DNA of 64,000 nucleotides. It comes from a virus. The notes under the pieces are model-generated. The model worked only from the letters and a program-made list of their open reading frames with translations. It did not search any database and was not told the DNA's origin. The position numbers were made by a program, and so were the translations under genes. The stretch spans positions 1 through 64,000 of the IMG/VR virus record IMGVR_UViG_3300009684_001510. One strand, 5' to 3'. Positions 3,100-55,600 of this stretch are shown here, piece after piece (position 1 is the stretch's first letter; every line of letters begins with the position of its first letter).

Positions 3100-4230
3100 T
3101 TAAATTTTAATAATAGATTCAGGGCCCATTAATTCTTTAGATCCCTGCATGGTTCGATCTTGATTACGAATTCCCGGTGTACTTGTATCTTGTACTGGTG
3201 CTGCTCCGGGTACTGATTGTGTTGTTGTTGTTGTTGCTGTAGTAACGGGTGGTGCGGGTGGTGCTTCGGGTGGAGATAGTGTAAGGTCATCTAGCCATTT
3301 GACTTTTCTAGTTTCGTTCTTTGTATTAGTTTCTGCTCTAGCATTCTTAAGACCTAGATCCGGTCTACCTGTCATGTACCTAACTGTAAGATAGGGTTCG
3401 TATATACCAGTAGGAGTAACACCATTATCATACACAGTGTCACCATTTAATTTAAACACACCCGAACCTGCTGGAGCTATAGAAACTTTACCTACTAGAA
3501 CGCAATTAACATTAGAAACTCCAACATCTTGTCCAAAATCTTTTCCAAAAACAATTTTATTTTTAATTTCATTGTTGTTGAGGTGAAGTCCAAATGATTC
3601 TCGTGGACCTAATTCTCCTCCTGTAATTTCTTTTATCTTATCGACCCATGCTTTTATAGTTGGATATGATCCGACTAAATGTGTAAAACCACCCCACTTT
3701 TTAAAATTATCTGCTTTTAGACTGACATATGCAACCGGCTCATTATTTTCATTAACGACCGTCATATCGCTTTTTACCCTTCCAGGCGTTTTTTCAAATC
3801 TTGCTGCATTAACTATTGATCCCTTGCCGACTATTAATTTAATAAAAGGTTGACCTGCTTTTAATTTTTCTAATTCTTCAGATAACCCGGCAATTTGAGC
3901 TTGTTCTTTTCTTTCTCGAGAGAATGAACCTTCTCCGCCAAACTCTTTTGTTTTTTTAATTTTACCAAATGAAATAAACCTTGGTGGCTCTTCTATTGTT
4001 TTTAATTGGAAATTGGTGTTGTTTTGTTCCAAATTTTGAGCAATTTCGTCGTATTGGGTGGGATCAAATATAACTTTTTCTTCGCCCGCTGCTGTTTTAA
4101 TTGTAAAAGGTGTCTGCATTATTATTTTATCTAAGAAAATAGGAACTCTATCTCTGTTAGGATGGTCCTTGTACTTGAACATTTCCTTATTGGTCAAATA
4201 TGTTTCTGGTAAAAATTCTCTTGCTCTCAT
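3100..4230 (-). CDS. Conserved phage protein with possible PD-(D/E)xK-like core and MRAREFL N-terminus
   Basis: 376 residues. It begins MRAREFL, an N-terminal signature I associate with virion or prohead-linked proteins of T4-like aquatic phages. The middle has KSDMTVVN...EPVAYVSLKA...WGGF, whose D-x(n)-S-x-K pattern resembles a PD-(D/E)xK nuclease-like fold. The C-terminal ~80 residues are Pro/Thr-rich and look like a disordered linker. A perfect late box (4237-4244) precedes the ATG, which fits late, structural-phase expression. The nuclease link is inference. No ribosome site is obvious between late box and ATG. Confidence 0.55.
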   Translation of the reverse strand: MRAREFLPETYLTNKEMFKYKDHPNRDRVPIFLDKIIMQTPFTIKTAAGEEKVIFDPTQYDEIAQNLEQNNTNFQLKTIEEPPRFISFGKIKKTKEFGGEGSFSRERKEQAQIAGLSEELEKLKAGQPFIKLIVGKGSIVNAARFEKTPGRVKSDMTVVNENNEPVAYVSLKADNFKKWGGFTHLVGSYPTIKAWVDKIKEITGGELGPRESFGLHLNNNEIKNKIVFGKDFGQDVGVSNVNCVLVGKVSIAPAGSGVFKLNGDTVYDNGVTPTGIYEPYLTVRYMTGRPDLGLKNARAETNTKNETRKVKWLDDLTLSPPEAPPAPPVTTATTTTTQSVPGAAPVQDTSTPGIRNQDRTMQGSKELMGPESIIKI

Positions 4231-4236
4231 AACAAG

Positions 4237-4244
4237 TATTTATA
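4237..4244 (-). promoter_or_regulatory. T4-like late promoter TATAAATA
   Basis: An exact TATAAATA on the minus strand, seven bases before the ATG at 4230. It overlaps the stop codon of the bilin reductase gene, so late transcription of the downstream gene starts at or just beyond the end of the bilin operon. Confidence 0.55.
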
Positions 4245-4905
4245 CCACTTCTGGAAACAGAATTTCGCTAACAAATTTTTTCATTTTAGATTCTTCTACA
4301 CCCATAGCAACCATACTTTTAATTACGTGAGGATTCTGCTTTTGATAATGACAATACCGATTCTGTGCCATGTGATAATCTGCTAGATCTTGCTGTGTGT
4401 TTCCCACATGTTTTAGGTAATAATCTAATGTTCTAGTGGCTAATTCGCATAAGTTATCTAATTCTTCACCTATTCTTACATTACCTGCGGCAACCATGGC
4501 AGGACTGAATATACTACTTGCCCACTCAGGAAGGTTTCTAGGTCGTTGCCAGTTGTAATATAGTGTTTCATTAGCGAACCAATGCATCATAGGATGACTA
4601 GGATCGCCTGCTGAACTATAATCACAGAATGCACCTGTAATTTTGTTTGGACCGCATACAGCATCAAACCCAAAAATAGGACTAGAGTCGTTGAAATGTG
4701 GAAACACCGTACAATGTAGAATGTATATATTGTGACTTTCTCTATTGTCTACAATTTCTATATGTGCTCTACGATATCGAGGACTTGCCCAAAGTTGATT
4801 ATGCCACTCGTAATCTAAATTACCAGTTATCGGTTCACCGGTAGCATTGAATCGATCTTCAAACTTCTTGGCTAATTCTTCAATTTTGTCCCAAACTGCT
4901 GTCAT
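4240..4905 (-). CDS. Ferredoxin-dependent bilin reductase (PcyX/PebS-like)
   Basis: 221 residues, the usual length for phage bilin reductases. Conserved landmarks: SPRYRRAHIE (41-50), ILHCTVFPHF (62-71), IFGFDAVCGP (77-86), AFCDYSS (92-98), and AQNRYCHYQKQN (180-191). Asp95 matches the catalytic Asp105 of PcyA. Position 70 is His where PcyA has Glu76, and Asp176 falls in the region of the second catalytic Asp of PebS. This pattern points to the viral four-electron enzymes making phycoerythrobilin (PebS/PcyX) rather than to PcyA. It overlaps the heme oxygenase gene by 26 bp, so the substrate biliverdin is produced by its operon partner. Electrons would come from ferredoxin. Product specificity cannot be settled from sequence alone. 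Confidence 0.88.
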   Translation of the reverse strand: MTAVWDKIEELAKKFEDRFNATGEPITGNLDYEWHNQLWASPRYRRAHIEIVDNRESHNIYILHCTVFPHFNDSSPIFGFDAVCGPNKITGAFCDYSSAGDPSHPMMHWFANETLYYNWQRPRNLPEWASSIFSPAMVAAGNVRIGEELDNLCELATRTLDYYLKHVGNTQQDLADYHMAQNRYCHYQKQNPHVIKSMVAMGVEESKMKKFVSEILFPEVV

Positions 4906-5422
4906 ATGATTCCATTATTTTAATTGCCCATTCAAAGGCTATGTTGGCTTCAACAGCCATATCGTCTGAAAGCATAGTACGTACAGTTTTAATTAACTCA
5001 GCACGATCTTCAAACTCTAAATGTGAGTGAGGTGCTTGCACAATTTTTTTAATCATTTGGCCGCCATGTAGATCTCCCATGTGCCATGTATAAAGATGTG
5101 CCATAATACGTTTAGGATCATCTAACGACCTTATATAACTAGCATAATCTTTAGTTATTGATTTATATGTATTAAAACTTCCTATAGGTTTATCCATAGC
5201 TTTGTAGTCGTCCATGATTAATCCTGCACGTTCAAACCCCGGTAATGCATCTAACAATCCTGCTTGACGAGCAGCATGTTCGATCTCGTTATACCATAGT
5301 TGTTTTTGGTAAGTGAAATCTACCCATAAATCAAAAGGCAGGGTTTTTGCAAACACTGCCTTCATAAAAGGGGTATCTTCCGCTTGTTGATGTTTTTCAG
5401 CGGTTAATTCTTTTAAGCTCAT
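4880..5422 (-). CDS. Heme oxygenase (biliverdin-producing)
   Basis: 180 residues, close to cyanophage Ho1 length. The proximal heme ligand is in TAEKHQQAE (His11), and the distal helix has MGDLHGGQ (116-122), the GDLSGGQ motif in which the kinked glycines stack on heme. The enzyme opens heme to biliverdin, CO and iron using reduced ferredoxin. It is followed by the bilin reductase with a 26-bp overlap, the arrangement known for phage heme oxygenase-bilin reductase pairs. It is preceded by clpS 9 bp away, so it probably shares the chaperone transcript. Freed iron could also feed the phage class I RNR, which is inference. Confidence 0.92.
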   Translation of the reverse strand: MSLKELTAEKHQQAEDTPFMKAVFAKTLPFDLWVDFTYQKQLWYNEIEHAARQAGLLDALPGFERAGLIMDDYKAMDKPIGSFNTYKSITKDYASYIRSLDDPKRIMAHLYTWHMGDLHGGQMIKKIVQAPHSHLEFEDRAELIKTVRTMLSDDMAVEANIAFEWAIKIMESYDSSLGQN

Positions 5423-5431
5423 AATATTTTC

Positions 5432-5734
5432 TCATTCTGCGGTTATCTTAATTATCAAAGGCCAACCGTGCAGCCTTGCTAAATTGGTTCCATCTAATTG
5501 TTTTTGCTCTGCAACCTCATGAGTATATGTGCCAACAATTGCACTTTCTTCATTATGAATTTTTAAAGTTAATTCCATTGCTGTGCTTTCATTATGCCTA
5601 AATATTAAAATTAACATTGCAATAACAAATTCCATGGGGGTGGAATTATCATTACAAACAATAACATTAAATTTTCCAGGTTCTTTTACATTTGTAGTTT
5701 TAGACTTTTTTTCAATGATTGTATCAGTGGTCAT
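5432..5734 (-). CDS. clpS: ClpS, N-degron adaptor
   Basis: 100 residues. Core motifs: NVIVCNDNSTPMEFV, the helix LTLKIHNEE, and VGTYTHEVAE, then LARLHGWPL. The His of KIHNEE and the Asp of CND match residues of the E. coli N-degron pocket (Asp35, His66); the usual second Asp (Asp36) is Asn here, which could shift specificity. ClpS delivers N-degron substrates to ClpAP. No ClpA or ClpP is in the window, so it would act on host ClpA. A GC-rich hairpin (5753-5768) precedes it. Confidence 0.88.
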   Translation of the reverse strand: MTTDTIIEKKSKTTNVKEPGKFNVIVCNDNSTPMEFVIAMLILIFRHNESTAMELTLKIHNEESAIVGTYTHEVAEQKQLDGTNLARLHGWPLIIKITAE

Positions 5735-5774: not shown

Positions 5775-6209
5775 TTACTCAGCTTTAATTTTTAATACAC
5801 GAGGTTTTAATGCATCGGGAACAATACGCTTTAATTCAATTGTAAGCACGCCATTCTTAATCTTACCCTCGCCAACTTCCATGTGTTCAGCTAATGTCCA
5901 GCTACGTGTGAAATCGCGGAATGAAAGTCCACGATGTAAAAACTCAGCAGTTATATCATTGCTCTTGTCTCGAACACCCTTAACAATGAGTTGATTCTGA
6001 TCAATCTCAACTGTGACTTCATCCTTAGCAAAACCTGTAACAGCGATTTCAATCTCGTAAGAGGCATCGTCGTGTTTAACAATATTGTAAGGTGGGTAAT
6101 TGTCTTTGAGTTGATTTGCAAAACGATGTTCAAAATCGTCAAACATTGAATCAAATCCTAAGAGTGCTCTGTTTAGAGCGTTGGTATCAAAACGTACTAA
6201 TTGTGTCAT
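5775..6209 (-). CDS. Hsp20/IbpA-type small heat-shock protein
   Basis: 144 residues, opening MTQLVRFDTNALNRALLGFD as in bacterial IbpA. The alpha-crystallin domain spans about 35-125 (YPPYNIVKHDDASYEIEIAV, DEVTVEIDQNQLIVKG, LHRGLSFRDFTRSWTL), with the conserved GVLTIEL strand near 118. It is an ATP-independent holdase that would hand clients to DnaK, whose gene is directly upstream. AAAGGAG precedes the ATG. Two hairpins fill the 85-bp gap to dnaK. Small heat-shock proteins are widespread in T4-like aquatic phages, but pairing with a full DnaK is rare. Confidence 0.93.
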   Translation of the reverse strand: MTQLVRFDTNALNRALLGFDSMFDDFEHRFANQLKDNYPPYNIVKHDDASYEIEIAVTGFAKDEVTVEIDQNQLIVKGVRDKSNDITAEFLHRGLSFRDFTRSWTLAEHMEVGEGKIKNGVLTIELKRIVPDALKPRVLKIKAE

Positions 6210-6294: not shown

Positions 6295-8226
6295 TTAAGC
6301 AGCCTTTTTAGCTTGCTCAGTTGTTTCTTTAAAATCTACATCAACTATATTATCATCTGCGGGTTTCTCAGACTCGCCAGATGCGGTTTTTTCTTCCTCT
6401 TCTGCTTTAAGTTTTGCAGCAGTAATAGAACCCATGCATTCGTAAAGAGTTGAAATACTTTTTTGTATTGCTTCAACATCGTCCCCCTTGACAGCATCGT
6501 TGATACCTTTGATTGCATCTTCAACCTTGGTCTTTTCTTCAGGTGGAACTTTATCGCCGTATTTTTCAATATCATCTTTAAATCCGTGAACAGTAGATTC
6601 GGCAGTATTTCGAGCATCAACTAACGCACGTTGCGTTTTATCTGCTTCTGCATTGAGTTCAGCATCTTTGATCATATCTTGGATTTCCGATTCACTCAAA
6701 CCACTGTTAGATTTAATGGTGATTTTGTTTTCTTTACCAGTATTTTTATCTTTGGCACTTACGTGCATGATACCATTTGCGTCAATATCAAATGTAATTT
6801 CAATTTGAGGAATTCCCCGACGTGCAGGTGGAATTCCTTCTAGATTAAATTCACCTAACAATTTGTTATGTTGTACAAACTCGCGCTCGCCTTGGAATGC
6901 TTTGATAGTAACAGCTGGCTGATTGTCGTCAGCAGTTGAAAACGTTTGTGAGGCCTTAGTAGGGATAGTTGTATTCTTTTGAATCAACTTGGCCATTACG
7001 CCACCCTGTGTTTCAATACCAAGACTCAACGGAGTAACGTCTAGCAATAAAACGTCATTACGTCCACCACCTAGAACATCACCTTGGATAGCTGCACCTG
7101 CGGCCACTGCTTCGTCTGGGTTAACATCTTTACGTGGTGCTTTGCCAAACAATTTTTCAACTGTTTCAACAACTTTGGGCATACGTGTCATACCACCAAC
7201 GAGGATAACTTCATCGATATCACTGGCAGTAACGCCTGCATCTGCCATAGCAGTTTTACAAGGTGCAACACTACGCTGAATTAGTTCTTCAACAAGTTGT
7301 TCTAATTTAGCACGGGTGATCTTAACATTCATATGTTTCGGACCGCTTGCATCTGCTGTGATATAAGGCAAGTTAACATCTGTTTGTGCAGAACTTGAAA
7401 GTTCAATCTTGGCTTTTTCAGCAGCTTCTTTCAAACGCTGAAGCGCCAGCATGTCCTTCTTAAGATCAACGCCCGAGTCTTTCTTAAATTCATTAACCAA
7501 GAAATCCATAATACGTTGGTCAAAGTCTTCACCACCCAAGAACGTATCGCCGTTAGTACTCAGTACTTCAATTTGTTTATCGCCGTCGATGTGTGCAATT
7601 TCAATAATACTAACATCAAATGTACCACCACCCAAGTCGTAAACTGCAATCTTACGATCTCTTTTATCAGTTTTATCAACGCCATACGCAAGAGCTGCCG
7701 CAGTTGGTTCGTTGATAATACGTAGAACTTCAAGTCCTGCAATTAAACCAGCGTCTTTAGTTGCCTGTCTTTGACTGTCATTAAAGTATGCAGGAACTGT
7801 GATAACTGCTTGTGTAACTTCGTGTCCTAGATAATCCTCTGCTGTCTTTTTCATTTTACGTAGCACTTCTGCACTAATTTGTGGAGGTGCCAGTTTTTCA
7901 TTATTCACATCTATCCAAGCATCGCCGTTTTCTGCTTCTACAATTTTGTAGGGCATTAGGTCAATGTCTTTTTGCACAGCTTCTTCTTTAAATTTACGTC
8001 CAATTAGACGTTTAGCTGCATAGATTGTATTTTTTGGATTTGTAACTGCTTGGCGTTTTGCGCTAGCACCTACAAGGATCTCATCATTGGCATATGCAAC
8101 AATACTTGGGGTAGTGCGATTGCCTTCTGAATTTTCTATAATTTTTGTGACGCCATTTTCAATAACTGCCACACAGGAATTTGTAGTTCCAAGGTCGATA
8201 CCTATAACATGATTTCTTTTGCTCAT
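6295..8226 (-). CDS. dnaK: DnaK (Hsp70) molecular chaperone, full length
   Basis: 643 residues, full bacterial length. Nucleotide-binding domain: [13 protein letters not shown] (9-21), [41 protein letters not shown] and [13 protein letters not shown]. Substrate domain: [14 protein letters not shown] linker and strands, then the helical lid; the C-terminus ends with an EEVD-like acidic tail (NIVDVDFKE). All motifs are intact, so an active ATPase is expected. No DnaJ or GrpE is in the window, so it would need host co-chaperones. It has its own sigma-70 promoter, a hairpin-rich leader and an AAGGAG ribosome site, and heads the dnaK-hsp20-clpS-heme oxygenase-bilin reductase cluster. The tail resembles betaproteobacterial DnaK, a weak host hint. 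Confidence 0.97.
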
Positions 8227-8297: not shown

Positions 8298-8326
8298 ATT
8301 ATACCACTATAATAAATAATTGTCAA
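8298..8326 (-). promoter_or_regulatory. Consensus sigma-70 promoter of dnaK
   Basis: TTGACA (8321-8326) and TATAAT (8298-8303) with a 17-nt spacer, matching consensus at all 12 positions. Predicted start near 8291. The -35 box overlaps the stop codon of the upstream gene. No sigma-32-type heat-shock promoter was seen, so control seems to be early-phage rather than host heat shock. Confidence 0.85.
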
Positions 8327-8604
8327 TTGATTGTATCATCAATATGATCTGATGCTCTTGGCACCTGATCAATAAACTTGTCTTTGTATTCTTTTTTACC
8401 TCCTTCTACATCATAGGTAGATTCGGTGTTGGCTATGGCTTTGTATATAGGGTGCAATAGTTTATCCATAATCCTACGTGCCATTTCTTCCAATACTCGA
8501 TCTACATCTTTGCCCTGTGCAATCTGCATCATAGCGTGGCCGTGTTCAAACATGCGGACACGGTTGCTCCACGATTCCATAGATTCGTTGGGATTAGGTT
8601 TCAC
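8323..8604 (-). CDS. Small helical protein resembling glutamyl-tRNA reductase dimerisation domain
   Basis: 93 residues from a GTG start, five nt after the preceding reading frame. The core MMQIAQGKDVDRVLEEMARR...DKLLHPIYKAI has the pattern of the C-terminal dimerisation domain of glutamyl-tRNA reductase (HemA), in which a helix pair with L-x2-G-x3-E-x-V-L-E-x-L-A and K-L-L-H-x-P is conserved. The catalytic and NADPH domains are absent. Family homology is my inference from pattern. Its position just before the heme oxygenase-bilin reductase cluster is notable, but it could equally be a generic phage protein that borrows the fold. Confidence 0.5.
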   Translation of the reverse strand: MKPNPNESMESWSNRVRMFEHGHAMMQIAQGKDVDRVLEEMARRIMDKLLHPIYKAIANTESTYDVEGGKKEYKDKFIDQVPRASDHIDDTIN

Positions 8605-32190: not shown

Positions 32191-32574
32191 TTAAATTATA
32201 TTATGTTTCTTTTTATAGTCTTCAACGGCTGCAGAAATTGCTGATTCTGCCAAAATACTACAATGTATCTTAACTGGGGGCAGGGCTAGTTCTTCTGCAA
32301 TTTGATTGTTTTTGAGTTTAATAGCATCATCAATATGCATACCTTTAACCCACTCTGTAACCAACGAGCTACTGGCAATTGCTGAACCACATCCATATGT
32401 CTTGAAACGAGCATCTCTAATAATACCATTTTCATCTACCTTTATCTGTAATTTCATCACATCCCCGCAAGCAGGGGCCCCGACCATACCTGTACCAACT
32501 GTATCGTCGATTTCAAACTTACCCACATTACGAGGGTTTTCATAGTGGTCAATTACGGCAGCTGAATAAGACAT
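32191..32574 (-). CDS. IscU/NifU-N-type Fe-S scaffold
   Basis: 127 residues. SAAVIDHYENPRNVG at the start and three cysteines in family positions: GAPACGDVMKL (Cys37, followed by Asp39), YGCGSAIASSS (Cys63) and IHCSILAE (Cys106, with His105). The LPPVKIHCS segment is the HscA-binding region of IscU; the phage encodes a DnaK-type chaperone elsewhere. It sits 4 bp after nrdB and before glutaredoxin, so it may help load iron or Fe-S clusters during nucleotide synthesis; inference. Confidence 0.93.
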   Translation of the reverse strand: MSYSAAVIDHYENPRNVGKFEIDDTVGTGMVGAPACGDVMKLQIKVDENGIIRDARFKTYGCGSAIASSSLVTEWVKGMHIDDAIKLKNNQIAEELALPPVKIHCSILAESAISAAVEDYKKKHNII

Positions 32575-32578
32575 AATT

Positions 32579-33670
32579 TTACAAGTCCGGTAATTCTTCG
32601 TATGTTACAGAGTCCGACATTACCCCAATAACATAATTCGTACTTTCAGTTTCCTGAAGTGCCGACTGCTTCTTGCCGATGTTGACATGCTTATTAAACC
32701 ATGGGATAGGACTAGATTTAGGATGTTCACCTAGATACTTAATGCCAATATCCTTGAGACGATTAAATGCGGTATAATCAACAAAATCGCTTAGGATAGC
32801 GGCATTAAGACCAATAACTGGTCCTAGTTTAAACAAATAGGTTGCCCAGGCCTTTTCTTCTTTTATAACTTCCATATACATAGCATAAACTTCATCTCGA
32901 CATTCTTCAACTAGATTAGCAAAATCAGCATCATCTTTTACTACATTATTAATAATCCAGGCAGTCCAATCTGCGTGTAGGATTTCGTCTTGTAGGATCA
33001 AGCTGATAATGTTGCCATTACCGATGTAGATTTTATTCTCTACCATGGCTAGACTTGTGGCAAATGAAACCATAAAGCGGAACGCTTCTAATGCATAGCT
33101 AGCATGTAATGCAAGCCAAATGGCTTTCTTATGTTCGTGTAGATCAATATCCTCACCACATGCTTTTCGACAATTGAGAATGTGTAAGGCTTCGTAGTAG
33201 CGACCAATACTAGCAGCCATTTCTACAATTTCTGTAGTGTCGTGAATCTTATTAAATTCTTCTTTAGGTACTCCATATACGTTACGAATAATGTGACTGT
33301 AGCTTTTGCTATGAATATTTGTCTCGAACATCGACCAAATAGATACTAACGACTCAAGTTCAGGTAAACTAACAACGGGACTAAAAATTTGAACCGGTGC
33401 TCGACCCTGAATGCTGTCTAATGCTGTCTGTCTTAACAAGTTACTGGTAAAAATATGTTTAACTGCCTCACTTGCATCTTTGTGGTCCATTTTGTCTTTA
33501 GTGAGACTAATTTCCTCCGGCACCCAAAAAAATCCTCTTTGTAGTTCTTCAAACTTTGCAATTTTAGGCTGTCGATATTCTTCAAATCGTTGCACAGTTA
33601 CTACACCATCTAAAAACATTTTTCGTTTTAAATAGTTAGTAGGTTTAGATAGGTCATATGTATTTGTCAT
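32579..33670 (-). CDS. nrdB: Class Ia ribonucleotide reductase, beta subunit
   Basis: 363 residues. TALDSIQGRAP holds the first iron ligand Asp, FETNIHSKSYSH the Glu, His and radical Tyr, and EAFRFMVSFA, DEILHADWTAW the later Glu and His ligands. The first ligand pair reads E-x3-H here, while E. coli NrdB has E-x2-H (Glu115, His118), an insertion worth checking. It makes the tyrosyl radical for NrdA. Its ATG shares a base with the stop of an endonuclease remnant (TAATG). Confidence 0.95.
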   Translation of the reverse strand: MTNTYDLSKPTNYLKRKMFLDGVVTVQRFEEYRQPKIAKFEELQRGFFWVPEEISLTKDKMDHKDASEAVKHIFTSNLLRQTALDSIQGRAPVQIFSPVVSLPELESLVSIWSMFETNIHSKSYSHIIRNVYGVPKEEFNKIHDTTEIVEMAASIGRYYEALHILNCRKACGEDIDLHEHKKAIWLALHASYALEAFRFMVSFATSLAMVENKIYIGNGNIISLILQDEILHADWTAWIINNVVKDDADFANLVEECRDEVYAMYMEVIKEEKAWATYLFKLGPVIGLNAAILSDFVDYTAFNRLKDIGIKYLGEHPKSSPIPWFNKHVNIGKKQSALQETESTNYVIGVMSDSVTYEELPDL

Positions 33671-33861: not shown

Positions 33862-34354
33862 TCACTTTGAATATTTGTTCTAACCATAATTTACAGTCAT
33901 TCCATTTTTTATATATGTGTGACTGTCCGCCCGCATTTTCCCATTCTTGACAATTGCTGATTCTATCATCTATCAATATGTCTCCTGATTTGCAATGCTT
34001 CCATTTGTCGGTACTGTAAGGACCAAGGAAAACAGGAATACCGGGAAAATGTTCTTGCGCCCAAAAAACTTTATCTTGTATGGCCCATTGCATGTCGTTG
34101 TTGCGCGGTAATGCTGATAGAAAAAATAAATTCTCTACTTTGCCAGATTCAACAAGATCACGACAATATTGCACTAGGTCATGTGCATTATCTTTCAAAG
34201 GCAAATGGCGATAAAATCTAGAGTTCATTTTGATTTTATCCCAATCCTCCTGGGGAATACGGCCGCCTTCTCTTTCCCATTTCATTTTAAGAAATTCTTC
34301 TGCACTAGTATGCCAATCGGCTACTACGTCATCCATGTCTAAATATATGTTCAT
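33851..34354 (-). CDS. 5'(3')-deoxyribonucleotidase, HAD superfamily
   Basis: 167 residues from the ATG at 34354, which overlaps the preceding stop. MNIYLDMDDVVADW carries the HAD nucleophile (Asp6) and acid-base Asp8, FLSALPRNN motif II, and DILIDDRISNCQEWENAGG motif III. It matches the NT5C deoxyribonucleotidases and phage homologues. It dephosphorylates dNMPs, and its place beside nrdA and nrdB fits nucleotide-pool control. Confidence 0.88.
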   Translation of the reverse strand: MNIYLDMDDVVADWHTSAEEFLKMKWEREGGRIPQEDWDKIKMNSRFYRHLPLKDNAHDLVQYCRDLVESGKVENLFFLSALPRNNDMQWAIQDKVFWAQEHFPGIPVFLGPYSTDKWKHCKSGDILIDDRISNCQEWENAGGQSHIYKKWNDCKLWLEQIFKVTEH

Positions 34355-35040
34355 AATTTCATCCATTCATTGTCTTGTATTGGAATCCAACCTTTTCTAA
34401 AATACTTTATCATATTCATAAAAGGCCCTGCCTCTTTGCCGTCATCTTTCCAGTTATAATTTTTATTCATAGTCAATCCGTATAACTTACAATACGATGG
34501 TTTATTATTGTTAATCCATATATTGTAAATCTCATCGGCTCTTTTCCATAATGCTCGAGTAACATCGGTCGCCCTAGGATGATTCCAGGGCTTGACTCCA
34601 GCATTTGGATTCTTTTCGCCGCGCTTTGCTTCAGACATGGATTTCAATCCAGATTCTGTAAAACACGATGCATCAAAAGGCATACCAAATTTCCAATGTG
34701 CAGATCCCCTTGGCTGATTTTTTCCAGGATTATTAGGACCACGCATATATTCGGAATATTGTCGTTTTAGCCAACCATATGCTTTATTGTTACGTTGTAC
34801 ATTGCTGTTTGATGATACCATAAACATAGCGGCTTTGACAAGGCGTATATTGTTAGGATGTATTTTAACTAACAACAGATGACACAAGTAATGTTCTTCT
34901 GGTGTAAGTGATACTAAGTTAGTTGCTTCATCTGTTCCTTCCATACATCGTGGAACAATATGATGCTTTTCCTTATATCCTTCTAATATTCTGTTTTGTC
35001 CTCTCCTTATTATATTATTATATATTTTTTGGTAATCCAT
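34351..35040 (-). CDS. HNH homing endonuclease
   Basis: 229 residues. EKHHIVPRCMEGTDEATNLVSLTPEEHYLCHLLL is the HNH core (paired His26, His27, central Asn, final His). Downstream, RGSAHWKFGMPFDASCF, RGEKNPNAGVKPWN (NUMOD3-like) and a C-terminal WKDDGKEAGPFMNMIKYFRKGW DNA-binding module. It is free-standing and lies between the nrdA C-terminal half and the 5'-nucleotidase. A GATAAATA box and a CAGGAGA site precede its start. Confidence 0.9.
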   Translation of the reverse strand: MDYQKIYNNIIRRGQNRILEGYKEKHHIVPRCMEGTDEATNLVSLTPEEHYLCHLLLVKIHPNNIRLVKAAMFMVSSNSNVQRNNKAYGWLKRQYSEYMRGPNNPGKNQPRGSAHWKFGMPFDASCFTESGLKSMSEAKRGEKNPNAGVKPWNHPRATDVTRALWKRADEIYNIWINNNKPSYCKLYGLTMNKNYNWKDDGKEAGPFMNMIKYFRKGWIPIQDNEWMKL

Positions 35041-35096
35041 ACAAGTCTCCTGTAAGTTTATTTATCACAACTTACAGAAAACTTATAATTTACAAC

Positions 35097-36077
35097 TCAA
35101 AGTTTGCAGGCTAAACAATCCTCTTCTTCTTCATATATTGTAACAGGTTCTGCTGTTACTAATCTATCACTTTGTGTATTTAAAATATTCTTACTGCCCA
35201 CTTTATCTATCAGACTATAGTACATTGTCTTTAAACCCCACTTGTAGGCCAACATTAAATTCTTTGCTATTAATGTGCCCGGCACCTTGCCATCTTTAAA
35301 ATGCCTTGGACTATAGAATGTATTAGTACTCAAACTTTGATCAACATACACTGCAAGTACAGCGGATGTCTTTAAGTATTCAACACAATCCTTTTGATCC
35401 CACATCATTTGATAACGATTCTTTAAACGGCGATATTCTGGAACCACTTGTACAAAACTACCTGCCTTGCTTTCTTTAACACTGATCAGTTCCATGGGCA
35501 TTTCAATACCATTGGTAGAATTTAATACAACACTACTAGACTCAACAGGAGCAACTGCCATAAGTGTAGCATTACGAATACCATACTTGATCATACGAGC
35601 ACGTAGTGGTTCCCAATCCATGCTAGAAGTAAAGTCAGTTAATTCGTTAACACCGTTGGCTCTACGTTCCCAAGGAAATACTCCCCGACCGTAGTAAGTG
35701 TGTTCGCTACGCAGACAGGGGCCGCGCTCTTGGGCCAATTCCACACTGGTTTCGGTTAGGTAGTATGCCTGGTGTTCCATCCAACGTTTGACTTCGGCCA
35801 GTGCTTCAGGTGTTCCATACTTGAAACTTTTGCGAGCATGCCAGTAGGCCAGATTTGTGATGCCAACTCCCAACGGTTCAAAGTCTTCGTTAGCCAGTTT
35901 ACTTTGAATGCTCAAGAAGTCTTGATACTGCAATAGGTTGCTTAAACTACGCACCAGCACACGACAGGCTTTTCTCATTTCCTGTGGATTACGGAACGCT
36001 CCCCAATTGATTGATCCCAACGTGCATAAGGCTATCTTTGGTACAGCTCGTGTACATTCTTTTTTAACTATTTTCAT
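35097..36077 (-). CDS. nrdA: Ribonucleotide reductase alpha subunit, C-terminal half (gene in pieces)
   Basis: 326 residues. Begins with a short extra leader (MKIVKKECTRAVPK), then resumes the NrdA chain at IALCTLGSINW, whose Cys is the partner Cys462 of the redox pair in E. coli. It contains the radical-transfer tyrosines region and ends EDCLACKL, the C-terminal cysteine pair reduced by glutaredoxin. The first half of NrdA is a separate upstream gene. The alpha chain is thus made of two polypeptides split between Cys439 and Cys462, and must assemble for activity. Confidence 0.93.
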   Translation of the reverse strand: MKIVKKECTRAVPKIALCTLGSINWGAFRNPQEMRKACRVLVRSLSNLLQYQDFLSIQSKLANEDFEPLGVGITNLAYWHARKSFKYGTPEALAEVKRWMEHQAYYLTETSVELAQERGPCLRSEHTYYGRGVFPWERRANGVNELTDFTSSMDWEPLRARMIKYGIRNATLMAVAPVESSSVVLNSTNGIEMPMELISVKESKAGSFVQVVPEYRRLKNRYQMMWDQKDCVEYLKTSAVLAVYVDQSLSTNTFYSPRHFKDGKVPGTLIAKNLMLAYKWGLKTMYYSLIDKVGSKNILNTQSDRLVTAEPVTIYEEEEDCLACKL

Positions 36078-36291
36078 TTTTTAATGTTCTTCCTCTATAA
36101 TAATTTTTATTTTCTTCTAGAAAATTATCCATAATAGATAACTCAATCCTGCAATTTGCTGTCCCATTAGTCACCCAGATCCATTTTGCTGACTGCGATG
36201 ATAAGTGTTTTTTATGTTCCGAACTTCTATAATATGGATTATACTTAACCCAGTTATCGGGCGCTAGTTCATTATTAATTAATTGAACCAA
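36064..36291 (-). CDS. Homing-endonuclease-associated fragment between the nrdA halves
   Basis: 75 residues. YNPYYRSSEHKKHLSSQSAKWIWVTNGTANCRI then YYRGRT resembles the C-terminal W-x-TNG-x2-N-x-x-I...GR module found in phage HNH endonucleases and tail-chaperone-like repeats. The nuclease core is missing. It overlaps the C-half of nrdA by 14 bp and starts 29 bp after the N-half. I read it as the remains of the mobile gene that split nrdA; a small functional protein is possible. Confidence 0.55.
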   Translation of the reverse strand: MVQLINNELAPDNWVKYNPYYRSSEHKKHLSSQSAKWIWVTNGTANCRIELSIMDNFLEENKNYYRGRTLKNENS

Positions 36292-36320
36292 TTTTGTCTG
36301 AAATACTATTACCCACTAAA

Positions 36321-37835
36321 TTATATTAACAAATCTCCGATATCATCTGTTTCATCTAGTTCTCGAACCTTTTTACGATTTCCATCTTTAAGCAACACTT
36401 TATGTTCGCCGGGCAGAGTTAATTCTTCCCCGGTGTCGAGAGTGATCTTAAATTCACCTTCGTCGTCAATTCTTTGAAATGGATAAGTTGGAAGTAAAAT
36501 TTCCATACACAAATTCGATTGATATATTGGATCCACCGTTGTGTCAAACGGGCCCTGGTTGATGACATTGTCGATATTGACAAGATATATGCGCCCAGTA
36601 TCAGTACGTTCTTTAAGGATTCCAGCTTTGAATATCGCATCCGCCGATACAACTTTCTTTTTAACTTTCTTGTCCTGCTCATATTGTAGGTATAACCTTT
36701 CGAACTCTTTACTGTCTCTGTAGTAGGCTTCGTATAGATCCGGAACTTCATGAGGATCAAACAACGTCATCATTTCACCACGTTTATAACGGTTCCAGAA
36801 CATGGCATTAACTACCACTGAGTAATCCATTTGACGCACACGAGTTTCATCAGTACCTTGATTGTTCTTTAATACAATAAGATCTTCAAACTGTGCGTGC
36901 CAAATGGGGAATGTAACTGTACAGCTGGCGTTACGAATTCCGCCCTGCGAGCATGATCTCAAATCTGCAAACCATTTCTTCAAGAAAGGTATCATTCCAG
37001 TATGCTTGATCTCACCATTGCGAATAGGTGCACCTAAGGGTCTGATTCTGCCTATTTCGAGACCAATTCCGGCTCGTTTTGAGGCATATTTGGCCATCAT
37101 TTCGCCGCTAGCAAAGATACTGTCTAAAGTGTCATCTGACGTTATCAATACACACGAGCTAAATTGTTTGGTGGTTGTTCCTAATCCTGCTAGTACCGGA
37201 GTAGCTAATGTAAAGTGTCCACTACTAGCACATTCATAATATTCTTTTACAAGTTTTAATCTTGTTTCCTTGGGTTCATTATGAAAAGCTGTTGCGGCTG
37301 CAATAGCATAACGTACCTGCGGAGTTTCATAGACCTGTCCAGTGGCACGATTTTGTACAAGATACTTTTCTGTTAACTGTGCTATCGCAGCAAATGTGTA
37401 TGTTTCATCTTTATCATGGTCGATGAAAAGATCAATGATATCCCATTCATCTTCTGTGTACCAATCTAGCAATTTGCTAGTGTACATGCCTGCCTCTGTA
37501 TTTGTTTGTACAATGCTATAAAGTTTAGGAGGGTCGTATTTACCATAGACTTCTTTGCGTAGCATACTAACACGCTGACGTCCTGCTACGTATTGGTAAT
37601 TGACATTGTTAATTTCTGGATTTTCTGTTTCATCTATCAAATTAACCATAGCTTTAAGCAATAGTTCATCTATAGTTTCTGTGGTCATTCCGTCATGGAG
37701 TTCAATTTGAGCTTTGATTTCGATCATTGATGGACTAACTCCATCAATTCCTCGGCATGCATGTGCTACTTGTCTTTGTATTTTTTCAATGTCCAATGGA
37801 ACACGTTGTCCATTACGTTTGACCACTGTGATCAT
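36321..37835 (-). CDS. nrdA: Ribonucleotide reductase alpha subunit, N-terminal half with intein-like tail (gene in pieces)
   Basis: 504 residues. ATP-cone (MITVVKRNGQRVPLDIEKIQ), FSSCVLITSDD (Cys225 equivalent), GIGLEIGRIRPLG, RVRQMDYSVVVN and SNLCMEILLPT (Cys439, Asn437, Glu441). After DDEGE, where E. coli continues IALCTLSAFN, this protein instead reads ITLDTGEELTLPGEHKVLL..GNRKKVRELDETDDI, which looks like a HINT/intein N-terminal block (strand, then x-x-H-K-V, then E-L-x-x-D-D-I). No intein Cys1 is visible. The two halves cover the whole NrdA with no gap. An AGAGGT ribosome site precedes the ATG. Confidence 0.93.
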   Translation of the reverse strand: MITVVKRNGQRVPLDIEKIQRQVAHACRGIDGVSPSMIEIKAQIELHDGMTTETIDELLLKAMVNLIDETENPEINNVNYQYVAGRQRVSMLRKEVYGKYDPPKLYSIVQTNTEAGMYTSKLLDWYTEDEWDIIDLFIDHDKDETYTFAAIAQLTEKYLVQNRATGQVYETPQVRYAIAAATAFHNEPKETRLKLVKEYYECASSGHFTLATPVLAGLGTTTKQFSSCVLITSDDTLDSIFASGEMMAKYASKRAGIGLEIGRIRPLGAPIRNGEIKHTGMIPFLKKWFADLRSCSQGGIRNASCTVTFPIWHAQFEDLIVLKNNQGTDETRVRQMDYSVVVNAMFWNRYKRGEMMTLFDPHEVPDLYEAYYRDSKEFERLYLQYEQDKKVKKKVVSADAIFKAGILKERTDTGRIYLVNIDNVINQGPFDTTVDPIYQSNLCMEILLPTYPFQRIDDEGEFKITLDTGEELTLPGEHKVLLKDGNRKKVRELDETDDIGDLLI

Positions 37836-52656: not shown

Positions 52657-55600
52657 TTATCTTAACCGTGGATAAGTCAGTGGTGGCGGAAGTAAAGGGT
52701 CTGTATATCGAGCAATTTGTGTAATTCTTAAATCATCAATATATCCCTTAAATGATAATGAATTATAGGATATTCCAATGTACTTAAATGGTATTGTGTA
52801 ATTTGTTGTATTTGTTGTAGAACTAGTAATTGCAGAATTTATATACATAGTTAATATAGATCCAGATCTAACAACTGCTACATGATTCCATATATTAACA
52901 ATCACAGTTCCTGTGGTAACAAATGTGGTATTATCTTTCCAACCAATTTGACTGCCCACAGCATCGTTCACTCCTGTATATCCTAAATATGCAGATCCCG
53001 GAACACTGGTACTAGTAGTCCTAGAATCTAATAATGCCGGTGCGGTAGTTGAGGTACTGTACAAACTAAGTGGGTACATCCACATTTCTATTGTAAAATC
53101 CCCAGAGCCCAGTGCTGTTAAATTTGTTGCAGTGGTTGTTGAAGTCGAACCTATACCCAATCCATCACCGTCACCATCAAAGTATATACTAGTGGCATTA
53201 TATTTAACAATTGAATTTGAAACTGATATATCACCTATGGAATATATATTATTTTGTGTAGTGGCATCAAATATTTTACTTTCAGTGGCATTAATTAATA
53301 AACTAGTGTTAGCAAATTTAAATTCAATAGCTCCGCTGGAATTAAACACATAAACTTTATAGCTGTTTGTGGTATAAACTCCAGTTGTACCTGTGGTCAA
53401 CGGTGCAGTAGTAAGCGTATCTGTATGCCATATAATTACTTTACCTGATCCTCCGGTGCCGCCGGTGCCGCCGCCGCCGTAGTAATCGCCGCCGCTGCCG
53501 GCTCCCCCGTTGCCAGTGTTTGTGCCGGCTGCAGGTGGACTTAAGGAGTTGGATGGTGTGCCACCTGCAGAAAATGTTGCCGAATATGTTGAACTACTAG
53601 CAACACTAACATACAGTCCGGAACCACCAACACCGTAAGCTCCTGCACTAGATGCACCACCTGCAGAACCAGCGCCACCACCACCGCCACCGAAATAGCT
53701 GCTGCGGCCCTGGCCGGCAACGCTGTAGCTGTAACCGCCACTATTCCCTCCACTATTTCCATATCCAATTCCAGAACCATTTAGTCCCAGTGTATTTTGT
53801 GTAGATGTACCAGCCTGGGTTGCCGCCGTTTGATAACTATAGGCATTACCACCACTACCAGAACCACCAGCGAGACCTACGGTACCGGCTGCATCCGACC
53901 CACCACCACCACCACCTTTAGCTAGAATATTTGGAGGAATATTAAGTCCAACCAGTTGACTATCTTGGCCATTGGTCCGGGAACCACCGCCTGCACCCAC
54001 AGTGATAGTTATTACACCCATGATATCAGTGGCAGTAAAGCTACCAACTGTTAGGCCGCCTGCGCCGCCGCCTGCGCCATATTCTGTGCCATAGGCCGCA
54101 CTGGGAGTGTATTGGCCAGTCCCACCACCACCGCCACCTGCTACTACTACATAATTAATTGTAAAACTTGATGATTGAGATCTAGTGTCAGGTGTTAATG
54201 GTGTAACTGGTAATGTATATGTTGTAACACCTCCAGCAGTTGTTATCCGTTCTGAAATAGCGCCTCGTAATATACGTAGATTCGATAGATACCCCTTGTA
54301 ATATCCAAGATTTAGATATGTCGATCTACCTATACTAAAATTATTAGTAATCAATTTAAAATTAGGAGATACAGCAGTATACAAACTGCTTAGAACAGTT
54401 GTAATTGTAATAGATGTAACAGTAGTACCGGCAGATGTGCCATTGATATACAAAGTTACAGTTGTATTATTTCTAACTAATGCTATATGATTCCATGCTC
54501 TAAATTTAACTTTTAAATTTTCTGCATCGGTACTTGTAAATGTAGTGGCAGTTCCTAGACTAACTGTACATCGCCCCGAAGTCTGCAATGCCAAAGACAT
54601 CCCATCGTTGGTAGACGTAGTAGCTGTACCAAATGTCATAGCACCGGATATGTTATATCGACTATCGATAAAATACACAGTGGTGCTAATTGGTTCTGGA
54701 TAAGACCAAAATTCTATACTAAAACTGTTATTTTGAAAATTAACAGCATTAGGATTCACTGTTAAAAAGTCTGTGCTACCATCAAAGTAAACACTACCAC
54801 CGGTCAACAGTGTGTTATATGGCCCGGGATTTATAAAGGGAGAGAATCTACGTATTGCAGGAGTACCATTTTGACTAACTGTAAAATTATAATTGCTTTT
54901 GTCAATAAGTGATCCACTTGCAGAAACCAACAAGTTAGTATTATTAACTAACGGAAACGGTGATCTAGGTAATGCAATTATACTTGATCCATTTAAAAAA
55001 CGAAAATTTGACATGTAACCCTGGAAATAGTTGGTACCGTCATAGCCAATATATATAGATTGAGTATTATTATACACTGTTCCAGTGCTGGACGCGGTTA
55101 CTAAATTACCGCCATTTAACATGCTGGTATAGGTTGATCCGGACCTAGATAGAGATATGTGATTCCAAGTGTTCAAATTAATCAGAGTGTTAGATATTGG
55201 TAGATAATCTGTTCCGAACGTAATAGTTCCACTACCGGTGAATATATATATTCTAAATCCGCCTGTCACAGTGTATGTTACTGGGCCAATTGTTGTTGCT
55301 GGTGCATAGGTATCAGAATAACGAAGAATGACTACTCCCGACCCGCCTCTACTACCCGCAGTCCCTGACTCACCGCCACCACCGCCACCACCTCCTCCAG
55401 TATTTGCGGTGGCGTTTGAGGCAGCCCTGTAATTGTAAGCTGCGCCATAGCCACCGCCATAACTAAGGCCGAAGCCGGTGTAACTGCTGTTGCCGCCGCC
55501 ACCACCTCCTCCTCGGCCAACAGATGTCCCTGTAATAGTCGAATATAATCCTATGCCACCTTCTCCTCCTCCTCCGACCCCGCCAGCACCACCGCCTCCG

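Follow-up and report, generated by a model that had tools for sequence, protein, structure and literature searches.

Phycobilin production by phages of non-photosynthetic hosts has been called enigmatic (PMC11480375), and a heme oxygenase (HO) gene overlapping a bilin reductase gene in an uncultured virus raises the question of which bilin the pair would make and what purpose it would serve. The 64-kb stretch analyzed here, called the window, opens a virus record of 70,578 bp, which is itself contained in a longer record, G001 (112,863 bp), at 99.997% identity. An initial annotation had placed the two genes side by side with a 26-bp overlap (4880-4905), and open reading frames together with Pfam scores above the curated cut-offs for both HO and the ferredoxin-dependent bilin reductase (FDBR) bear this out (Table 1). 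Among the near relatives of the window, dN/dS was 0.04-0.13 for both genes, indicating strong purifying selection. The pair itself is not new, because HO with PcyA or PcyX has already been published for non-cyanophages, phages of heterotrophs (PMC11480375 and work cited there). The annotation therefore overstated its novelty, as pelagiphage Mosig and Methylocystis phage CB_2 (PMC11480375) were known, and its question of purpose is sharpened by three neighbors that it had left unconnected to the pair: a glutamyl-tRNA reductase (GluTR)-domain protein, ClpS and HSP20.

Table 1. Features of the window around the HO and FDBR genes
Feature	Position	Strand	Evidence and remarks
phrog_13937 gene after FDBR, function unassigned	3100-4230	minus	not conserved in the lineage
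Ferredoxin-dependent bilin reductase (FDBR), PcyA type	4240-4905	minus	221 aa; Pfam Fe_bilin_red PF05996, 4.7e-19; H48, E50, H64, D81, N191
Heme oxygenase (HO)	4880-5422	minus	180 aa; Pfam Heme_oxygenase PF01126, 2.3e-12
ClpS, N-degron adaptor of ClpAP	5432-5734	minus	Pfam PF02617, 1e-21
HSP20 small heat-shock protein	5775-6209	minus	Pfam PF00011, 4.5e-15; first obligate cassette gene in 46/46 contigs
DnaK, optional first cassette gene	6295-8226	minus	Pfam PF00012, 6.3e-259
Sigma-70 promoter, TTGACA-17-TATAAT, TG before the second hexamer	8298-8326	minus	12/12 matches; about 70 bp before DnaK
G93, 93-aa stand-alone relative of the C-terminal dimerization helices of GluTR (HemA)	8323-8604	minus	PF00745

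Predicted chemistry of the gene pair

In an alignment with PcyA, PcyX and PebS, residues His48, Glu50, His64, Asp81 and Asn191 of the window FDBR correspond to PcyA His74, Glu76, His88, Asp105 and Asn219. The test residues of PcyA, Glu76, His88 and Asp105 (Synechocystis numbering; PMC10151467), are all present as E50, H64 and D81. Glu76 is specific to PcyA, is missing in PcyX and pre-PcyA, and is needed for 18-vinyl reduction (PMC10151467). The mark of PcyX (Asp55, an Asp at the Glu76 position) is absent from the window FDBR, which has Glu50 there instead, and the position of PebS Asp206 is occupied by Asn191. The initial annotation had seen Asp95, Asp176 and a His at the Glu76 position and taken them for the viral four-electron type. 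That pattern was wrong: Asp95 is another, likewise invariant Asp distinct from the Asp105 equivalent, and Asp176 is out of register with PebS Asp206. The assignment to the viral type does not hold on residues either, since the marks of PcyX and PebS are missing and the PcyA set is complete. PcyA is likewise a four-electron enzyme. PcyA chemistry is thus well supported by the residues. Because the full PcyA active-site set is present, and because the PcyA of phage CB_2, which also lacks the PcyX Asp, produces phycocyanobilin (PMC11480375), we predict phycocyanobilin as the product, in contrast to marine PcyX and PebS, which yield phycoerythrobilin.

A phylogenetic tree of 52 FDBR rows was examined, with PebS and PebA/PebB left out and with "freshwater" and "marine" serving as working names for groups in the FDBR trees. 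A 100/100 branch separated cyanobacterial and cyanophage PcyA from the other rows. The window FDBR was among those others and grouped with uncultured phages; of the 17 rows in its group (100/99), 15 retain Glu at the Glu76 position. The separation bears out the annotated view of an HO and bilin reductase pair in a phage whose FDBR stands apart from that of cyanophages. Marine relatives including Mosig have Asp at this position, and a few others have Ser, Asn, His or Gln. The window FDBR was also apart from PebS in a separate FDBR tree in which the WH7803 rows were wrongly extracted. PebS of cyanophage P-SSM2 resembles the window protein as a phage-borne four-electron FDBR but belongs to a different FDBR branch. 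Cellular relatives in a genome-wide scan were essentially cyanobacterial PcyA (25-36%), in a pattern-limited scan that may miss alphaproteobacterial PcyA. In one related record, G012 (the record of contig L022), two FDBR genes were observed at 53155-53706 and 79678-80286.

The proximal heme ligand of HO is His11 and its distal-helix motif GDxxGGQ lies at 116-122, according to a profile match and alignments to solved HOs. His11, Gly116, Asp117, Gly120 and Gly121 are at least 95% conserved across the 46 contigs described below. HO is predicted to convert heme to biliverdin, a chemistry well supported by these residues. A simple motif search of the 112.9-kb record G001 gave no credible candidate for a phage ferredoxin gene.

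A conserved cassette behind a consensus promoter

Contigs with HSP20 and ClpS hits beside FDBR were chosen for comparison, and all 46 have HSP20-ClpS-HO-FDBR in identical order and on the same strand, down to about 38% FDBR identity, with short gaps or overlaps between the genes in most. Four of these contigs are more distant (L265, L273, L276 and L280), and the two of them placed in the FDBR tree both fell on the marine side; HSP20 and ClpS are absent from other marine FDBR contigs. DnaK heads the cassette in about half of the 46, with the order unchanged. The phrog_13937 gene probably lies outside the cassette. HSP20 near metabolic genes has been noted in related phages (PMC7674155). In two contigs an alpha/beta hydrolase gene stands between HO and FDBR (L028:7429-8001 and L294:9430-10008), which may encode a bilin-modifying enzyme or be an unrelated insertion.

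A sigma-70 promoter precedes DnaK or HSP20 in 33 of the 46 contigs, with 11-12 of 12 matches and nearly always a 17-nt spacing; in 28 of these it lies about 60-90 bp upstream of the first gene, and in the other 5 it immediately precedes HSP20. The best scores in shuffled sequences were 9-11 of 12. This near-perfect promoter points to early transcription of the cassette by the host polymerase.

Residues N34, D35, H66, E79, K84 and L99 (E. coli numbering) are invariant in the 46 phage ClpS copies, and D36 is Asn in the window copy. Asn34, Asp35 and His66 form the N-degron pocket and Glu79 and Lys84 contact ClpA. Because pocket and contacts are kept in all 46 copies, the phage ClpS is predicted to be a working adaptor, not a decoy.

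G93, AlaS and the host heme loop

G93 has the same helical hairpin as the PF00745 domain of GluTR, with the G-(E/K)-D...KLLH-P signature in register. The Pfam GlutR_dimer profile matched the window G93 alone weakly (7e-5), and it matched all 19 true G93 members, the best at 2.9e-9. Profile-profile comparison with full GluTRs gave a match (92%, E 5e-7) to E. coli GluTR residues 352-398, in register, covering about 50 residues and found in both comparison directions; the aligned segments read AMMQIAQGKDVDRVLEEMARRIMDKLLHPIYKAI in the phage and ALARLQKGEDASKVVEELTHRLTQKLLHPTSVLL in Acinetobacter. G93 differs from GluTR in consisting of 93 aa only, with PF00745 as its sole Pfam match, and in having neither the catalytic nor the NADPH-binding domain, so it would be unable itself to make glutamate semialdehyde. 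Its AlphaFold model is a plain helical hairpin, for which a Foldseek search gave no significant match. Searches starting from G93 hit only contigs with the HO/FDBR cassette, except L363, a contig ending just behind G93.

G93 was found in 34 records and 5-aminolevulinate synthase (AlaS) in 17, and in none were both together. AlaS (TIGR01821) had no match in G001, which at 112.9 kb is possibly incomplete; because many records are fragments, absence of AlaS is weaker evidence than absence of G93 beside the cassette. Mapped onto a tree built from the four cassette proteins, G93 and AlaS each changed state at least 5 times on supported branches, and four independent pairs differing in both traits (L019/L294, L016/L009, L326/L014 and L026/L288) were all opposite (sign test, p 0.125). 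The mutual exclusion is suggestive, not significant. An apparent signal of broken G93 in AlaS-carrying records was gone with a clean alignment. The closest described systems, both in Wegner et al. 2024 (PMC11480375), are the three-gene cassettes and, in freshwater phage CB_2, vHemO and vPcyA (with vAlaS); there HO likewise adjoins a PcyA*-type FDBR without the PcyX Asp and the host is not cyanobacterial. They differ in carrying AlaS, for which the 112.9 kb of G001 gave no match; the GluTR-domain protein stands nearby instead. The main text of that paper mentions neither the ClpS/HSP20 link nor a GluTR-domain protein. In the open-licence literature, the ClpS link was not found reported, nor was the GluTR-domain protein or the mutual exclusion between it and AlaS, and we could not find a description of the fixed HSP20-ClpS-HO-FDBR block with its consensus promoter and adjoining G93.

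In Salmonella, sufficient heme leads to breakdown of GluTR by ClpAP and Lon (PMC12288459, PMC5801465). In plants, ClpS1 binds GluTR (PMC7966870) and heme triggers Clp-dependent degradation of GluTR (PMC7966870, PMC9992760). With a GluTR piece, ClpS and a heme-degrading pair in one block, three points of the GluTR/heme loop would be touched. We regard it as an even call that HO and FDBR supply the enzymes at the end of a (DnaK)-HSP20-ClpS-HO-PcyA cassette that is expressed early and acts on host heme and 5-aminolevulinate supply. Host sigma-70 RNA polymerase would transcribe the cassette from the consensus promoter, which is seen as sequence. HO, judged by its family and conserved residues, would open heme to biliverdin, Fe2+ and CO, and FDBR with host ferredoxin would convert biliverdin to phycocyanobilin, as its complete PcyA site and the tested relative CB_2 suggest. 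For the remaining neighbors we infer that G93 might bind or mimic host GluTR, altering 5-aminolevulinate supply, and that ClpS might feed or re-aim ClpAP, the known GluTR protease; heme removal might also relieve heme-triggered GluTR degradation. GluTR stability or assembly would thereby change, which might either raise or lower 5-aminolevulinate. The net effect would be heme turnover without normal feedback, providing bilin as well as iron for class I ribonucleotide reductase (RNR) and Fe-S proteins (IscU), and related phages bearing AlaS would make 5-aminolevulinate themselves, without G93. The full version of this proposal, in which a GluTR mimic and phage ClpS act on host GluTR and the Clp protease, HO and PcyA keep free heme low and yield iron and phycocyanobilin, and sister phages swap the mimic for their own AlaS, is tentative and rather doubtful.

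Several observations weigh against the heme-loop proposal. The functions of HO, FDBR and G93 are predictions from sequence, and the resemblance to GluTR consists of a match of some 50 residues, with a plain hairpin as the model and no significant structural hit. G93 lies upstream of the cassette promoter and so may be part of a separate transcript; the L014 copy is about 4 kb from the cassette and on the opposite strand. Its opposition to AlaS comes from just four contrasts. Evolution is faster in G93 and ClpS than in the two enzymes, and the role of ClpS and HSP20 may lie in capsid maturation or in protein quality control at large.

Other purposes of the bilin, and the host

A simpler purpose would be iron salvage only: HO would free iron for class I RNR and Fe-S proteins, FDBR would merely clear toxic biliverdin, and G93, ClpS and HSP20 would be unrelated neighbors. 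An IscU-like Fe-S scaffold gene (32191-32574) directly adjoins the RNR small subunit gene (32579-33670) in the window, iron supply is discussed in PMC11480375, and no bilin-binding partner was found in the phage records, all of which fit such a purpose. The FDBR active site, however, is under strong constraint, seemingly beyond the needs of disposal, and the replacement of Glu by Asp at the product-determining site in marine relatives hints that the product matters. The fixed order with ClpS and HSP20 in all 46 contigs also argues against salvage only, which we consider unlikely.

The product would change if the FDBR were PcyX-like and made phycoerythrobilin, its PcyA-like residues leaving the product undecided. 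The best-matching solved structure is indeed PcyX_EBK42635 (5owg, 166.9 bits), with cyanobacterial PcyA next, and the window FDBR shares a broad phage lineage with PcyX in the 52-row tree. Marine-phage PcyX (5owg; pelagiphage Mosig EXVC030M) is of the same family and gene pair, with about 36% identity to Mosig, but differs in the Asp at the Glu76 position and in its phycoerythrobilin product. Presence of the PcyA-specific Glu50 without the PcyX Asp, and the CB_2 precedent (PMC11480375), make a PcyX-like enzyme quite improbable. Mosig further differs in its surroundings: at L074:4327-8654, an annotated ferrochelatase and several 2OG-Fe(II) oxygenases adjoin HO and PcyX.

Light sensing, in which a phytochrome or bilin-binding globin of the host would take up the bilin as chromophore and host behavior would change, has precedents in the phage enzymes of CB_2, which load the phytochrome Cph1, and in Bradyrhizobium ORS278, where hemO-pcyA-alaS adjoins bphP (both PMC11480375). 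A phytochrome-type GAF domain, however, was absent from 35 phage records of the lineage, and none of 39 records had a phycobiliprotein-like protein over the cut-off. The annotated lack of a photosynthetic partner thus extends to the lineage, and we give a light-sensing role little credence.

The phage host is probably not cyanobacterial. DnaK identity is highest to Betaproteobacteria (about 67-72%), followed by Gammaproteobacteria (64-67%) and Alphaproteobacteria (63%). This agrees with the earlier lean toward a heterotrophic proteobacterium. Because the phage DnaKs group together in a separate clade, a betaproteobacterial host is no more than a leaning. Betaproteobacteria make 5-aminolevulinate by the GluTR route, in line with a GluTR target, which would be senseless in a host on the Shemin pathway. 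A pmoC search had no match in any record, and its controls were equally unmatched. Infection of cyanobacteria, with topping up of phycobilisome pigment as proposed for cyanophages, which do carry PcyA and PebS, is very improbable given an FDBR apart from cyanophage and cyanobacterial PcyA, a DnaK closest to Betaproteobacteria and the absence of photosynthesis genes among the window proteins scanned.

Other features of the records were noted. The RNR large subunit gene of the window is split (35097-36077 and 36321-37835, region 34351-37835) beside a homing endonuclease gene (34351-35040), and a plus-strand ORF at 1128-1796 encodes a Pro/Gly-rich lipoprotein-like protein with repeated (F)V(A/T/I)GP motifs. 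In the left part of G001, L187:7999-16013 holds three fatty-acid desaturase genes and a ketoacyl synthase, and 21 phage tRNA genes stand closely packed from L187:17733 to L188:2226, beyond the window.

Phage FDBRs vary naturally at the product-determining position, with Glu, Asp, Ser, Asn, His, Gln and Lys (L027 has Asp, L183 Ser and L298 Gln), a series useful for mechanism studies without engineering. The fixed ClpS/HSP20 neighborhood, G93 and the exclusion with AlaS make the purpose of the pair testable: the phage may control 5-aminolevulinate and heme in its host and so retune host heme supply during infection.
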